Shown: piece by piece, positions 3,249 to 25,970 of the stretch
How the letters are laid out: each line of letters begins with the position of its first letter
Numbering within the stretch: position 1 is the stretch's first letter
Source: a virus
Virus record (IMG/VR): IMGVR_UViG_3300017917_003557
Span: 1 to 27,415 of that record
Reading direction: 5' to 3' (one strand)
Length of the DNA: 27,415 nt
Position numbers and translations under genes: made by a program
The notes under the pieces: generated by a model
What the model was told of the DNA's origin: nothing
The model's database searches: none
Seen by the model: the letters and a program-made list of their open reading frames with translations, nothing else

Positions 3249-3481
3249 ATAAATTCAAACACTATTGTCCTGACTGGGACTTCATGCAGATTGATAGACA
3301 TGATGCAGAGTTTACGAGCTGTACCTGTGTGTTTTCTGACATTCCCAGAGTTCTAGAAGTGCTGGAAGATCTAAGAGGCTACAGTGGTGTAGGAATCGAC
3401 GGTAATCCTTACGATACTAGCTCCTGGAATGCTGCTCTGGACGCAGTCAAACAAACCCTCAGAGACAGGAATGTCTTTTAG
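3245..3481 (+). CDS. Hypothetical 78-aa protein
   Basis: The ATG at 3245 is chosen because it forms an ATGA overlap with the preceding stop. A GTG-type start at 3215 is possible but would overlap the upstream gene by 34 nt. The protein begins MNKFKHYCPDWDFMQIDRHD, has a Cys-containing strand (FTSCTCVF), and ends in helices (SSWNAALDAVKQTLRDRNVF). No family is recognised. Confidence 0.65.
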   Translation: MNKFKHYCPDWDFMQIDRHDAEFTSCTCVFSDIPRVLEVLEDLRGYSGVGIDGNPYDTSSWNAALDAVKQTLRDRNVF

Positions 3482-3965
3482 CAGACAACAATCTAACCAA
3501 ATATTAGTTCTGGATAATGTTCTTACTGATACAGACTGTTCAGACCTAATCGGCTTTTATCAGACTGTTGGTCCTAGTCATGACTACAGATCAACAAAAG
3601 TACGCCCTCTGAGACCCGGTCAGGGCGTTGACACATACGTAGCAAAAATTGTTCGTGCTTTTAATGAGTTCAGTCGTTTTAGCATAGGCATAAGCTGGTG
3701 CGAAATTGTTGAATGGCCCAAGAATGCCAGTCACGCTTTGCATGTCGATAAAACTGATCCAGTTGCTGCTTTTACTAGTATAACCTATCTTAACTCAGAC
3801 TATACTGGTGGCTGTACATATTTTAAAAATGATCTAAGCATAACGCCCAAGACCGGTCGAACCATTTATTTCGATGGCATGTACTATGTACATGGCGTTA
3901 CAACTGTAGAAACCGGCACCAGATATACCCTGCCTATCTGGTACAGTTTTTATGAAAAGGTTTAA
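3471..3965 (+). CDS. 2-oxoglutarate/Fe(II)-dependent oxygenase (prolyl 4-hydroxylase-like)
   Basis: This 164-aa protein has the double-stranded beta-helix signature of the Fe(II)/2OG oxygenases: H91-x-D93 (ALHVDKTDP), distal H141 (YYVHGVTTV) and R151 (GTRYTLPIW), which would bind 2-oxoglutarate. The expected spacing of about 50 residues between the first and second His is kept. The strand LVLDNVLTDTDCSDLI at the N-terminus is typical of P4H-like members. Start 3471 is preferred over the longer frame at 3429 because it gives a full-length domain with less overlap. It is the last gene before the RNA region. The substrate is unknown; protein hydroxylation is the usual reaction of this subfamily. 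Confidence 0.85.
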   Translation: MSFSRQQSNQILVLDNVLTDTDCSDLIGFYQTVGPSHDYRSTKVRPLRPGQGVDTYVAKIVRAFNEFSRFSIGISWCEIVEWPKNASHALHVDKTDPVAAFTSITYLNSDYTGGCTYFKNDLSITPKTGRTIYFDGMYYVHGVTTVETGTRYTLPIWYSFYEKV

Positions 3966-3972
3966 CGAATGC

Positions 3973-4001
3973 TTGACAACAGCATGCAAAGGTGCTAGAA
4001 T
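3973..4001 (+). promoter_or_regulatory. Sigma70-like promoter of the RNA/tRNA region
   Basis: TTGACA 3973-3978, 17-nt spacer, TAGAAT 3996-4001 preceded by GGTGC. There is no coding region directly downstream. The first products are the hairpin-rich RNA and tRNA-Ile, so this is an RNA promoter. A second AT-rich patch (TATAATAAATA, 4010-4020) follows and marks the likely 5' end region. Confidence 0.88.
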
Positions 4002-4237
4002 TATGATTGTATAATAAATAAACGTCATCCCCGGTCCTATGTCGGTTATACATGGGCGCGACAAGACCAGCGTTAGGGGTCTTAGGCCATCCATGAGGCC
4101 TCCAATCGGGCCAAATCCGATTCGGTAAAACCAACCCATGGAATCGCTGATCCTTCGACCAAGGATACGGACAGGGCAACACCTCACGTCGGGGCTTCTG
4201 GGAAGAAGTAGCCGACACCATATTGAAGTACATTGAG

Positions 4238-4259
4238 TTGGACTTTGTACAAAGTCCAA
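4238..4259 (+). repeat. 22-bp perfect palindrome
   Basis: TTGGACTTTGTACAAAGTCC followed by AA is a perfect 11+11 inverted repeat. It may form an RNA hairpin with a small loop, or act as a DNA operator. It lies in the middle of the hairpin-rich RNA and has no following T-run, so it is not a classical terminator. Confidence 0.7.
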
Positions 4260-4356
4260 TGGGGAGTTGAAGGTAGAAGAACCGGCCGGTCTGGCTATCA
4301 CATACACTTCGAGTCGAAGATATACAAAAAGTTCATTAATAATTTAGCGTACCAAT

Positions 4357-4431
4357 ACCAGGTTAGCTCAGAGGTAGAGCAGTGGATCGATAATCCATTG
4401 GTCAGTGGTTCAATCCCACTACCTGGTACCA
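4357..4431 (+). tRNA. tRNA-Ile (GAU)
   Basis: The cloverleaf is clear: acceptor ACCAGGT/ACCTGGT, D-stem GCTC/GAGC, anticodon stem GTGGA/TCCAT with loop TCGATAA (anticodon GAT), T-arm AGTGG-TTCAATC-CCACT, discriminator A and encoded CCA. The base at position 33 is C instead of the nearly universal U. The CCA also forms the start of a long inverted repeat (4429-4443/4481-4495). It lies inside the candidate structured RNA. Confidence 0.9.
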
Positions 4432-4669
4432 TAGTGAAGTGCATTGCCGAACAGACAAATGGTGGCGAGCCGATGAGTAGTGTACTTCACTATGGTAGAT
4501 GGTCGTTGTTAAAGGTGGGTATTAAGAGTATCCGCTCCTGAAAGGTGCAAATCCTGATTCAGCAGAGTGCCAGGTAATAAAAACATTGACCAGCCATATT
4601 GAAGCATATTCTATCAGGGCAGAATTGTTCAGCGGTTTAGAGCCGTGAGTATGTTTCAATATGGTAATT

Positions 4670-5444: not shown

Positions 5445-6056
5445 ATGTTTGAAATAAATCAAAAACTACATATCAAAGAAGAGAAGTTCGAGGATTCAAC
5501 ATTTCTTATAATTGATAACATTTTTAAAGACCCACAATTTATTGTTGATTGGTTAAAGCGCAATGAACCCAAGAATTTGTGGAAAGATGATGTGGAACCT
5601 AGTTATAACGGTAAGTATTTTGTTGATAAACGACATAACATACAACATCATAGTTTAGATAATTTTTTTTGGTTAATAGAATCTTTAACAAATAGAGTTA
5701 TAAAACAACGAGAAATTTATTCTAACTACACTATTTTAAAAGATAAAAATTTTAATGATTATAAAAACAATTATTGGTTTCCACATGTTGATTTTGGTTA
5801 CAATGCTATAGTTTACTTAAATGAATTTGATTGTGATGGAACTAATATTTACTACAATGATGCTCGTGATACTTACTCAGGCCCAGAGCATTTCGAGAGT
5901 TGGCGACCAAAAAATCTTTATAGATTAAAATATACATCAAAGGCTAAATTTAATAGGTTGTTTATTTTTGATGGAAACTTACTTCATGGAATGGCTATGA
6001 ATACTGATGTATTTTTTAATACACATAGATTAAATCTAGTTACCTTCTCGGTGTAG
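5445..6056 (+). CDS. DUF6445-like 2-oxoglutarate/Fe(II) oxygenase
   Basis: This 203-aa protein starts at ATG 5445, just after tRNA-Asn. The fold signature is H114-x-D116 (WFPHVDFGYNAIVYLN), H181 (FDGNLLHGM) and R195 (NTHRLNLVTF). The sentence-like order N-terminal LIIDNIFKDPQFIVDWL, then Y-L-N, then FNRLFIFDGNLLHG, fits the DUF6445 family of oxygenase-like proteins. Base composition is much more AT-rich than the flanking genes, which suggests recent acquisition. The TAG stop (6054-6056) lies inside tRNA-Trp. Substrate unknown. Confidence 0.82.
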   Translation: MFEINQKLHIKEEKFEDSTFLIIDNIFKDPQFIVDWLKRNEPKNLWKDDVEPSYNGKYFVDKRHNIQHHSLDNFFWLIESLTNRVIKQREIYSNYTILKDKNFNDYKNNYWFPHVDFGYNAIVYLNEFDCDGTNIYYNDARDTYSGPEHFESWRPKNLYRLKYTSKAKFNRLFIFDGNLLHGMAMNTDVFFNTHRLNLVTFSV

Positions 6057-11089: not shown

Positions 11090-11254
11090 ATGAAAGCTAC
11101 TGTTGAAATTCAATATGATGAATACACTGGAGATTATTTTATTGAATTGCCTCCAGACATTCTTGATGCAGCAAACCTAGTTGTGGGTGATACTATTCTT
11201 TGGGAAAAATTAGACGAAAGCAGTTGGTCTATAAAAAGAAATGCAGAATCTTAA
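11090..11254 (+). CDS. Small AbrB-like (swapped-hairpin) protein, 54 aa
   Basis: The ATG at 11090 follows GAAGG (11076-11080). An in-frame ATG at 11051 would add 13 basic residues and form a TAATG overlap with the phosphoesterase, so the start is not settled. The sequence ATVEIQYDEYTGDYFIELPP followed by DILDAANLVVGDTILWEKLD resembles the AbrB/MazE fold: strand, L-P-x-x-x-L, V-G-D-x-L/I. Such phage proteins probably bind DNA or act as antitoxin-like regulators. It overlaps the halogenase gene by 14 nt. Confidence 0.72.
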   Translation: MKATVEIQYDEYTGDYFIELPPDILDAANLVVGDTILWEKLDESSWSIKRNAES

Positions 11255-12713
11255 TTCGGTTATAGTAGTAGGAGCAGGAACAGCTGGGCTGATTTCTGCT
11301 CTAATGCTTCATGAAAAGTATCCGCATTTAAACATACAAATTGTCAAATCAGACAAAATTGGTATAGTTGGTGTAGGTGAAGGCTCAACAGAACATTGGA
11401 GAGCCTTCATGGAATTTTGTGGTATAAACCAACGTGAATTGATTTACAAGACAAAAGCTACAGTAAAATTAGGTATAGTCTTCAAGGATTGGAACCTTGG
11501 AGATACCTTTGTTCATTCTCTATCAGAAATTGAAACTAATTTGTCTGGGCTTAACAGATTAGATTATTTAAATGTACTATATCTTAACAATAAAAACTTA
11601 AGTCAGCTAGAACCCGGAGATCATGAATTAAGTTTTAAATCAGAAAATATTTCAAATCAGTTTCATTTCGACACTTTCAAACTTAATGAATTTTTGGTTG
11701 AACAGTGTAAAAACAAAGAAATAAATTTTATAATAGGTGAGGTACAGGATGTAATTCTAGATCATATGGGCTGGGTTCAGAGTATTTCTACTTCTATTGG
11801 TGAACTTACAGCTGATTTCTTCATAGATTGTACGGGTTTTCATAGAATTTTTTCTAAGGCTATGAATAATGCTTGGATTTCTAAAGCAGAATATCTGCCC
11901 ATGAATAGAGCCATAGCATTCCCAACGTCCATTGAAGAAAATGTTTCTTTAGAACCTTATACATTAGCTACAGCACTATCAGCTGGCTGGTCCTGGCGTA
12001 TTCCAACACAGGAAAGATATGGTAATGGTTATGTTTTTGATAATAGATACATTTCTGCAGATCAGGCACTTGAGGAGATATCAAAACATTTAAAATTATC
12101 TAACATAAAGCCCGGACGTGACATACCTTTCGAAGCTGGTAAAATTGATAAAATCTGGAATAAAAATGTATTACATGTTGGTCTATCAGGAAGTTTTGCT
12201 GAGCCTCTAGAAGCTCAAAGCATAGGTTTTACTATAGTTCAGATGTATACGTTTTTAAACTATTCTGACTTGTATGACTTTAATCTAGAATATCAGATTC
12301 AAAGATATAACAATGAGATGGATGGTGTTTTTCAAAATGTTATTGATTATCTACAGGCACATTATTTTACTAAAAGAGACGACAGTAAATTTTGGAGGGA
12401 TAAACCTTTTAAGTTAACTGATTTTAATCGTTGTTATTTGGATGCCTTTAAAGCAGGTTCTATAGTGCCCCAAATGTTTGAGAAAAACGTAATGTTTAGG
12501 GAAGCAAATTGGTATCAGATAATTGGTGGGCTTAAGTTAATTGATAAACTTAAACTATTGAGCAATATCAATAAAAATCGATCAAGTTTTAATGAATTTA
12601 ATGTGACATTTTTAGAAAGTTTATTAAAAAATAATAAAAACACTATAAGAATATCTCATAGGGAATATCTTAAAATTATGAATAATTCTTTTTTGAGGGA
12701 CCAAAATGGTTAA
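11241..12713 (+). CDS. Flavin-dependent tryptophan halogenase-like protein, 490 aa
   Basis: The FAD-binding G11-A-G-T-A-G16, the family hallmark W250-x-W252-x-I-P255 (GWSWRIP), the region of the catalytic lysine (K76 in TVKLGIVFKDW) and the glutamate of F-x-E-P-L-E324 (FAEPLEAQSIG) are all present in the right order. So the enzyme looks intact and near full length (family about 500-540 aa). These enzymes chlorinate or brominate tryptophan or related aromatics using reduced FAD from a partner reductase; none is seen here. AT-rich codon use suggests acquisition. It overlaps the AbrB-like gene upstream and the MbcA/ParS-like gene downstream. Confidence 0.9.
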   Translation: MQNLNSVIVVGAGTAGLISALMLHEKYPHLNIQIVKSDKIGIVGVGEGSTEHWRAFMEFCGINQRELIYKTKATVKLGIVFKDWNLGDTFVHSLSEIETNLSGLNRLDYLNVLYLNNKNLSQLEPGDHELSFKSENISNQFHFDTFKLNEFLVEQCKNKEINFIIGEVQDVILDHMGWVQSISTSIGELTADFFIDCTGFHRIFSKAMNNAWISKAEYLPMNRAIAFPTSIEENVSLEPYTLATALSAGWSWRIPTQERYGNGYVFDNRYISADQALEEISKHLKLSNIKPGRDIPFEAGKIDKIWNKNVLHVGLSGSFAEPLEAQSIGFTIVQMYTFLNYSDLYDFNLEYQIQRYNNEMDGVFQNVIDYLQAHYFTKRDDSKFWRDKPFKLTDFNRCYLDAFKAGSIVPQMFEKNVMFREANWYQIIGGLKLIDKLKLLSNINKNRSSFNEFNVTFLESLLKNNKNTIRISHREYLKIMNNSFLRDQNG

Positions 12714-23812: not shown

Positions 23813-24942
23813 TGCCTACTAGACAAGAAATTGACCACTTTCTTAAGATTGCACGAGGTAATCCTTACAGAGGTTTGTCTCGTAAACGCAACAAACGAAA
23901 AGACAGTCTTATGCCTCAACACTATACCGATGACATACCAGGACCGCACATGTTTGATGACCTAACCCATAACCCCTTTCACATGGCGGCCAGCAGTGTA
24001 GACGATATTATTACCAGTCAGATACTGCAGAAAAGATTCTTGGCCAACAAAGATGTTGAGCTGGAGCGCATCTATTTGCTGACCGATGTTCGTACAGTCA
24101 GAAAGTTTATTGCAGCTCTTAAAGAGCCCAAACGTATCTTTAGCATGAGCGAAGATCATGGCTATGTGTTCTTTGCAGACGATTGCTACTGGGAATATGG
24201 TGCAGACTCCAACATGGTCAGAGTCAAGTTCGTAGGCGGCAAAGATTTCGTTGGCTCTTGGAGCAAGAAGCTCAGCGAAGAATTTACCATTGCCAAGAGC
24301 TTTGTTGAATGGATGTATACTTCGGACGGCAACAGTGCTACTGTTCCCATTACCGACGAAAAGCAGCCCTTGCCCGAAATGTATCCATTCCTTAGCAAGG
24401 ACTTGTTCGAATATTACGATGACTACATGGACAGTTCGGCTAGTGTGCTGGTACTGTTAGGTCCTCCGGGCACAGGTAAGACCAGTTTTATTCGTGGCTT
24501 ACTTCAGTATACCAAGACCAATGCTCTGGTAAGCTATGATGCCAGCATCCTGGAAAAGGATTATATCTTTGCTCGCTTTGTCGAAGGACAGAACAATGTC
24601 ATGATACTGGAAGACGCCGATACCTTTTTAGGCAGCAGAACCGAAGGTAACGATGTCATGCACAAGTTCCTAAACGTTGGTGATGGCCTAATTACCAGCA
24701 AGGGTAAGAAAATGATCTTTAGTACTAACCTGCCCAGCATCAAGGACATAGATCCAGCACTAATTCGCCCAGGTCGTTGTTTTGATGTTCTAGAGTTTCG
24801 TGCCATGCAGGAAACCGAGCATCAGGTCCTGGCTGACAAATTGGGCATAGATCGCATGACCGGAGAAAAGACTCTGGCTGAGCTTTTCCATAGTCAGATC
24901 CATGCGCCCAAAGTTAAACGTCGTAACATGGGATTTTATTGA
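23812..24942 (+). CDS. AAA+ ATPase, 376 aa
   Basis: The AAA domain is in the C-terminal half: Walker A G217-P-P-G-T-G-K-T224, Walker B M264-I-L-E-D268 (note ED, not DE) and the C-terminal LIRPGRCFD sensor/arginine-finger region. The N-terminal half (about 190 aa) has no recognised domain but contains a K/R-rich start (GLSRKRNKRKDSL). The AAA part resembles BCS1/proteasome-type ATPases. Partner and target are unknown. It sits between a small conserved gene and UvsE, which it overlaps (TTGATG). Confidence 0.85.
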   Translation: MPTRQEIDHFLKIARGNPYRGLSRKRNKRKDSLMPQHYTDDIPGPHMFDDLTHNPFHMAASSVDDIITSQILQKRFLANKDVELERIYLLTDVRTVRKFIAALKEPKRIFSMSEDHGYVFFADDCYWEYGADSNMVRVKFVGGKDFVGSWSKKLSEEFTIAKSFVEWMYTSDGNSATVPITDEKQPLPEMYPFLSKDLFEYYDDYMDSSASVLVLLGPPGTGKTSFIRGLLQYTKTNALVSYDASILEKDYIFARFVEGQNNVMILEDADTFLGSRTEGNDVMHKFLNVGDGLITSKGKKMIFSTNLPSIKDIDPALIRPGRCFDVLEFRAMQETEHQVLADKLGIDRMTGEKTLAELFHSQIHAPKVKRRNMGFY

Positions 24943-25970
24943 TGAAAATTGGATTTTGCTGTAAGTGGATTGACACCGTCGAACAAATTGACGGATTCAA
25001 ACCCAAGGATGCTGCCAAGCAACTAAATACCAGAGTCACGACTATTACCTGGTTGAACAGACAGACTCGTGAAGTTGCCGAACAATGTCTCTGGGATCTC
25101 ATGGTCCATAACATTGAGAGTATAAGACTCTTGGTGGAAAGGGTTGGTAATCTAGATGCACATCTTAGGATGGTTCGTCTTGGTAGCGATATCTTGCCTG
25201 CTTATACCGAACCTACTTGGAGCTATTTTTGGCGTCGTGCTGACGTTAGGGATTATTGCGAGCGCCATTTTCCTGTTGTGGGCGAGCTTGCTCGTAGGCG
25301 GAACGTTCGCCTTGATTTTCATCCTGGTCAGTTCTGTGTACTGGCTAGCACAGATCCTGGTATTGTTAATCGCTCGCTAGAAGAATTCGAATACCATGTT
25401 GACATGGCTCGTTGGATGGGCTATGGTCGTAGCTTCCAGGATTTTATGATCAATGTTCATATTGCTGGTCGCGAAGGTGCTGCGGGTATACTTAAAGTTT
25501 GGCCCAGGCTCAGCACCGAGGCTCGTAACTGCATAACCATAGAAAACGACGAAACTCGTTGGGGATTAGATGAAAGCCTTAAGCTCAAAAATACTTGCGC
25601 TCTTGTTCTTGATATTCATCATCATTGGATCCGTACTGGAGAGTATATTCAGCCCACAGATCCAAGAGTACACCAGGTCATTGATTCCTGGCGCGGCGTG
25701 CGTCCGGCCCTGCACTACAGTGTCAGTCCAGAAAACATAGTTGGCGATCATTGTACAGATACCCTACCCTGTTTGGATACACTGGTAAAGTCCGGTAAGA
25801 ATCGCATGAAGCTCAGAGCGCACAGTAACTTTTACTGGAACGAAGCCTGCAATGATTGGGCCCTGGCCTTTACAGATTTCGATATCGAATGCGAATCTAA
25901 AGCCAAAAATCTGGCTAGCTTTAAATTGGCTGAAAGGCTAAATAAAAATATACTTAAACAAGCAGCTTAA
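24942..25970 (+). CDS. uvsE: UV damage endonuclease UvsE/UVDE-like, 342 aa
   Basis: The TIM-barrel UVDE pattern is complete: MKIGFCCKW start, VRLDFHPGQFCVLASTDPG (first metal His), INVHIAGREGAAGILKVWP, the ITIENDETRWGLDE motif with its conserved Glu, and LVLDIHHHWI followed by ALHYSVSPEN and the KLRAHSNFYW motif. This family nicks DNA 5' of UV photoproducts (established knowledge). ATG 24942 is used because it overlaps the upstream TGA. A hydrophobic overlapping frame (25156-25380) is discussed in the findings. Confidence 0.9.
   Translation: MKIGFCCKWIDTVEQIDGFKPKDAAKQLNTRVTTITWLNRQTREVAEQCLWDLMVHNIESIRLLVERVGNLDAHLRMVRLGSDILPAYTEPTWSYFWRRADVRDYCERHFPVVGELARRRNVRLDFHPGQFCVLASTDPGIVNRSLEEFEYHVDMARWMGYGRSFQDFMINVHIAGREGAAGILKVWPRLSTEARNCITIENDETRWGLDESLKLKNTCALVLDIHHHWIRTGEYIQPTDPRVHQVIDSWRGVRPALHYSVSPENIVGDHCTDTLPCLDTLVKSGKNRMKLRAHSNFYWNEACNDWALAFTDFDIECESKAKNLASFKLAERLNKNILKQAA

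Follow-up and report, generated by a model that had tools for sequence, protein, structure and literature searches.

A conserved pseudoknotted RNA of about 195 nucleotides near the tRNA genes of uncultured phages

The window, by which we mean the whole 27,415-base IMG/VR virus fragment analyzed here, carries 13 tRNA genes, all on the + strand. A tryptophan halogenase-like gene (11241-12713) and a UvdE UV-endonuclease-like gene (24939-25970) are encoded in the same phage window. In an earlier note the region 4008-4664 had been described as a single, hairpin-rich RNA of about 650 nt, preceded by its own promoter and enclosing a tRNA-Ile gene. Rfam matches in and around this region were tRNAs only. 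The following features were mapped.

3973-4001, + strand: promoter TTGACA-N17-TAGAAT, 11 of 12 consensus positions matched
4024-4219, + strand: conserved pseudoknotted RNA of about 196 nt (covariance model R1, 4019-4219; nhmmer homology, 4027-4215)
4217-4234, + strand: orphan left arm of an H spacer hairpin, 15/16 pairing possible with 4481-4496, across tRNA-Ile
4357-4431, + strand: tRNA-Ile(GAU), found by ARAGORN; Rfam 65.5 bits
4427-4497, + strand: H spacer hairpin 2, 21-bp stem 4427-4447/4477-4497 (21/21), takes in the CCA end of tRNA-Ile
4593-4665, + strand: H spacer hairpin 3, 19-bp stem 4593-4611/4647-4665 (19/19), ends just 5' of tRNA-Ala

The strict promoter noticed before just upstream of the region is indeed present, and it belongs to a phage-wide family with the extended motif TTGAC..GGTGCTAnAAT, which has further sites in the window at 287, 573, 13505, 15493 and 20978. 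The same motif also stands immediately 5' of the RNA in the loci L062, L073 and L077, and promoters were located 8-30 nt 5' of the RNA in the window and in L041, L062, L073, L077 and L131. The absence of a plausible gene from the region was borne out: no conserved open reading frame was detected in the six frames of 61 family members, the longest stop-free runs, including those open at both ends, being 29-69 codons. Sequence changes among the members track base pairs, not codons.

Relatives of the region were collected with a 22-mer taken from tRNA-Ile. Nine were obtained, all of which keep the tRNA-Ile, and most of which keep its immediate flank. In four of the nine a clear homologue of 4027-4234 occupies a different array position, following tRNA-Tyr and close to tRNA-Cys, and the conserved unit is therefore a segment of approximately 4024-4219 that is not tied to tRNA-Ile. 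These observations rule out one 650-nt RNA enclosing the tRNA: the homologues delimit a much shorter RNA, and the suggestion that tRNA-Ile is embedded in it or processed out of it is not supported, as the tRNA with its flank and the RNA move separately. Approaches through neighboring proteins were less productive. The protein encoded at 3429-3962 led to a single relative (39%) without tRNAs, and the protein encoded at 5445-6053 led to 25 loci, none of which contained the RNA. Between the RNA and tRNA-Ile lies the perfect 22-nt palindrome TTGGACTTTGTACAAAGTCCAA (4238-4259), which was found as described, its reverse complement matching itself; it was not seen in the aligned relatives.

Fold and covariation

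Taken together with its homologues, the segment 4024-4219 is predicted to specify an RNA of about 195 nt made of interlocking folds, just 5' of the tRNA genes of this phage. Its elements, all on the + strand, are listed below; all of the helices, pseudoknots included, were checked as paired in the window sequence.

4028-4031, +: 5' strand of P10 (UCCC), pairs with the P9 loop at 4200-4203; long-range pseudoknot joining both ends
4031-4056, +: Pseudoknot 1, P1 (4031-4033/4043-4045) interleaved with P2 (4036-4042/4050-4056; E=1e-6)
4057-4083, +: P3 hairpin, 4063-4068/4078-4083, covariation E=1.9e-8
4057-4059 with 4070-4072, +: P11, pairing of the P3 loop; outside the model, held-out set CG25/GC20, E=0.0055
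4084-4142, +: Pseudoknot 2, P4 (4084-4088/4097-4101) interleaved with P5 (4090-4095/4137-4142)
4104-4109/4117-4122, +: P6 hairpin, inside Pseudoknot 2
4144-4166, +: Pseudoknot 3, P7 (4144-4146/4156-4158) interleaved with P8 (4150-4153/4163-4166)
4169-4186, +: most conserved stretch, GGACAGGGCAACACCUCA, near-invariant in groups A and B
4188-4216, +: P9 terminal hairpin, 4188-4191/4213-4216 and 4195-4198/4205-4208

Covariation was measured with a tree-aware test, a script of our own modeled on R-scape (R-scape itself was not used). In an alignment of 33 members made from sequence only, the top eight covarying column pairs were all helix pairs (E from 8e-4), and with 61 members aligned to the model the same was true of the top 20, with a best E value of 1.9e-8. 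For the whole structure with its pseudoknots, 85.5% of cells were paired, compared with 59.7% after shuffling and at most 44.5% after sliding, and the covariation score was 0.636 (0.203 shuffled, at most 0.119 slid). Double-sided changes were seen in 49 of 52 pairs, counting the pseudoknots. The covariation was repeated in held-out members found with an independent pattern, including the pseudoknot helices outside the model.

Individual helices gave similar results. P5 covaries with E=3e-6 and P9 with E=5.7e-7 to 3e-5 (8e-7 in the held-out set), and P4 is paired in 89.8% of cells. For P8, a helix outside the model, permutation gave z=8.8, and the pair 178-204 had E=0.076 in the held-out set. 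The P10 strands of a given member are more complementary to each other than to permuted partners (z=6.3; 14-221 CG25/UA6), the pairings changing between members from UCCC/GGGA to CCUC/GAGG, CACU/AGUG, CCCUG/CAGGG and so on. An alternative use of the 5' end, helix P0 (5' ACCC with the GGGU after P2), was weaker than P10 and was dropped. The stretch at 4169-4186, which possibly forms a small hairpin, reads mostly GGACRGNGUAACNRCYCA in members retrieved independently; part of the near-invariance of the 18-mer comes from the search pattern.

The local helices that the first inspection had reported are present, and the two long ones among them are real (21/21 pairs at 4427-4497 and 19/19 at 4593-4665). 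An outer helix thought to close two hairpins fared less well: CAGCG and CGCTG do pair in the window (around 4068-4072/4145-4149), but both strands were found in none of the four close relatives checked, and the helix clashes with covarying ones. Energy folding of the downstream half (4430-4669) was far better than that of shuffled sequences (z=-6.8). Upstream it was weak (z=-1.5 for 4012-4356 and -1.8 for 4024-4219) because the fold is pseudoknotted and cannot be formed by plain energy folding; the proof for the upstream half is comparative.

These data bear directly on the notion that the RNA is a degenerate or mobile repeat of no function, shuffled with the tRNAs through recombination. Its position does differ between closely related arrays, but the notion is refuted by hundreds of compensatory changes (852 cells), which require selection on the folded RNA, and we leave it next to no probability. 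The earlier suggestion of a structured, possibly functional RNA, perhaps of a new class, is thus strongly supported by the covariation, its replication in held-out members, the dedicated promoter and the lack of an Rfam match (see below). Once homologues had been gathered into a family, the covariation by our own tree-aware script was overwhelming.

Family members and comparison with known RNAs

A query pattern from the 3' part of the RNA had at least 119 matches among viral contigs, and one from its 5' end had 17; iterated nhmmer yielded 132 matches at E<0.01. The covariance model R1, built from relatives and containing nested helices only, matched the window over its full length (4019-4219, 51.8 bits, E=4e-14). 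Full-length matches were obtained in four types of the RNA, namely A (window-like), B (L042-like), C and D, the last two partly paralogous. Another pattern, drawn from a separate domain, occurred in 102 stretches, and the RNA was present in 59 of the 64 contigs newly fetched with it. With all patterns together, R1 matched at least 155 fetched viral loci. Searches over the full length of 25 records showed one or two copies per genome. A single array or contig contained two copies, frequently differing in type, in L122, L050, L061, L067, L079, L116, L134 and L249.

A T4-type Gp23 capsid protein is encoded in 7 of the 20 carrier records tested, so that some of the carriers, at the least, belong to the T4-like myoviruses. 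Blastn of the RNA against the isolate phages of a phage collection gave no match, and in 324 kb of negative controls, which included isolate tRNA arrays and E. coli rrnB, the best E value was 0.15. Bacterial genomes contained 16 pattern matches; the best by the model (L163, 17 bits, E=0.0022) is not claimed as a member. Its absence from the isolate phages examined may be the reason why Rfam lacks the RNA.

Rfam 15 (4227 families) was searched with the RNA itself to E<=10, and no family rose above chance level for the copy in the window or for the other types; the window as a whole scored above gathering with tRNA models only. A gathering-level scan of 13 loci returned tRNAs only among the best 150 of 207 matches. 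Several consecutive pseudoknots are also a property of tmRNA, which is tied to the translation apparatus. The new RNA differs from it in having neither a tRNA-like domain nor a tag reading frame; ARAGORN found tRNAs only in the window, and there was no Rfam match to tmRNA. Bacterial RNase P RNA, which is pseudoknotted and acts on tRNA precursors, gave a chance-level fragment match only (8.7 bits, the cut-off being 100).

The earlier note had likened the RNA to GOLLD and ROOL. GOLLD is a structured RNA of phages and prophages found near tRNA islands, with an elaborate fold; it forms a large RNA-only multimer (nanocage) and was reported to bind ribosomes (PMC12286853). ROOL likewise occurs near phage and prophage tRNA islands and has a complex fold with several predicted pseudoknots (PMC12286853). 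Like the new RNA both are found near phage tRNA islands, and ROOL also shares the presence of pseudoknots. In contrast, GOLLD is often longer than 800 nt and differs in architecture, and the new RNA has no tRNA placed in a linker; ROOL is much larger than about 195 nt and its consensus is unrelated. The Rfam models of GOLLD and ROOL did not match the window or the other types at E<=10 (E<=5 in one scan), hence the RNA is neither. Of the proposed likeness the phage tRNA-island setting stands, whereas no match of sequence or model was found, and this setting is the only trait common to all three. In sequence, fold and architecture the RNA appears to match no known family, and an earlier listing in a large-scale prediction set is possible.

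tRNA arrays and spacer hairpins

All tRNAs counted at the tallied loci are on the strand of the RNA (1194/1194, with 87 instances of the RNA tabulated, and 792/792 in an independent set). In about half of the cases the first model position falls where the preceding tRNA ends, often directly after CCA (40/77 within 15 nt), and the next tRNA often begins 2-15 nt past the last position. The nearby tRNA types vary between loci, and the place of the RNA differs among related arrays. No tRNA was detectable in L101, in L141 and in 2 of the 61 matches of the independent set, thus the tie is not absolute. In L101, a 27,970-base contig, the RNA is present and no tRNA was detected in the 11.3 kb fetched; the RNA may stand there without a tRNA array. 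With one or two copies per genome at varied positions in the arrays, the RNA behaves as an independent gene and not as a repeated processing signal. The array context would fit the gene of a mature RNA in a processed polycistron, processing and function being predicted here from sequence.

A second element, distinct from the RNA, also recurs, and the helices at 4427-4497 and 4593-4665 are examples of it. The 5' arm of such H hairpins begins either within a tRNA's CCA or at the RNA 3' end; the 3' arm stops shortly 5' of the next tRNA. Closing stems were found in 45 of 159 gaps of 45-180 nt, as against 0.4% of shuffles, and in 19 of 29 gaps after the RNA. A close homologue of H hairpin 3 lies immediately 3' of the RNA in L013 (3097-3170). 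In the same locus the counterpart of the 4217-4234 arm closes a complete hairpin immediately 3' of the RNA, and the arm in the window has apparently been left without a partner of its own. With stems of 18-23 bp, a size suited to RNase III, the H hairpins are likely to serve in separating the members of the array. No 20-mer of the region between the two hairpins of the window (about 4500-4592) was matched exactly among viral contigs. Further H hairpins were seen at L007 5352-6011 (several) and L042 8016-8141, with variable apical domains, some of which are common to several phages.

One can also envisage the RNA itself as a cis-acting element for processing or folding of the tRNA precursor, shielding or positioning RNase sites and having no role after release. 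Its constant location on the tRNA strand, often abutting tRNAs, and the flanking spacer hairpins of RNase III-substrate size agree with this, but arrays of up to 29 tRNAs contain only one or two copies, the RNA is not tied to one tRNA, and in some loci it leads the array, with a promoter of its own. Taking into account also that so elaborate a fold goes far beyond the needs of processing, and that the H hairpins suit such a role better, we regard a cis element as unlikely.

Another conserved module (UGUAAGCC..GAUCAUGCCUGAGUAACUAUGUAC..CCGUUGAGCAUAGCAAAUAGUGCA) was noticed at L140 3513-3636, L118 2719-2842, L056 (about 9974), L077 and L105. It has an H-type closing stem and shows ACGG/CCGU versus GCGG/CCGC changes, it had no Rfam match, and it is possibly another new RNA family.

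Proposed role

The explanation we favor, and hold to be probably correct, is that the RNA represents a new class of phage RNA that is co-transcribed with tRNAs, matured like them and active in trans. Homology, fold, array context, promoter sequence and copy number are its basis, and from these we infer the expression, the processing, the action in trans and the target. The segment 4024-4219 would be transcribed from the promoter at 3973-4001, and in many relatives within the transcript of the tRNA array. It would probably be freed by the enzymes that mature the adjacent tRNAs, with the long spacer hairpins assisting, and would then act independently. With its pseudoknots interlocked and its 5' end fastened in the 3' hairpin loop, the RNA could adopt a rigid closed fold presenting the conserved GGACRGNGUAACNRCYCA to a partner. 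Because the RNA travels with tRNAs, this partner would most likely be part of the translation apparatus, which, as GOLLD was reported to bind ribosomes (PMC12286853), is a reasonable guess and no more. Pairing of the conserved segment with rRNA was considered and dropped, since its complementarity to E. coli 16S and 23S rRNA was at chance level.

The conserved, mostly unpaired segment within a compact pseudoknotted fold, and the location of the RNA 5' end at a tRNA 3' end, could also be expected of a self- or trans-cleaving ribozyme with the array transcript as its substrate. Such a function is very doubtful: no Rfam ribozyme match at E<=10 exceeded chance-level noise, arrays contain no more than one or two copies, and bacterial RNases suffice for tRNA maturation. 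Some probability, if a low one, is left for a decoy or antagonist of host defenses (anticodon nucleases, toxins) directed at tRNA or the ribosome, placed beside replacement tRNAs. The linkage to the tRNA arrays of large phages speaks for it, as do paralogous types within one genome, which would be expected with several targets; however, Rfam and ARAGORN detected no tRNA-like domain, and the fold is conserved over a very wide range of phages, where decoys would as a rule diversify.

The trans-acting RNA that we prefer can be given a wider formulation, which we offer tentatively and rate as possible rather than probable: a widespread class of pseudoknotted phage RNA, its 5' end locked in a 3' hairpin loop, would work on the host translation machinery as a partner of the tRNA arrays, and these, given their spacer hairpins and one or more additional conserved modules, would be multi-RNA operons and not tRNA clusters. 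RNA classes that are new and have deep covariation support are rare, and the present one occurs in at least 150 uncultured phage contigs. Its unambiguous consensus can now be used for probing, cryo-EM and pull-downs, and it poses a testable question, namely what besides tRNAs phages place in their tRNA arrays and whether it acts on translation. Homing-endonuclease-like reading frames were noticed by eye just 5' of the RNA, near tRNA-Cys, at L007 4361-4994 and L005 8382-9008.
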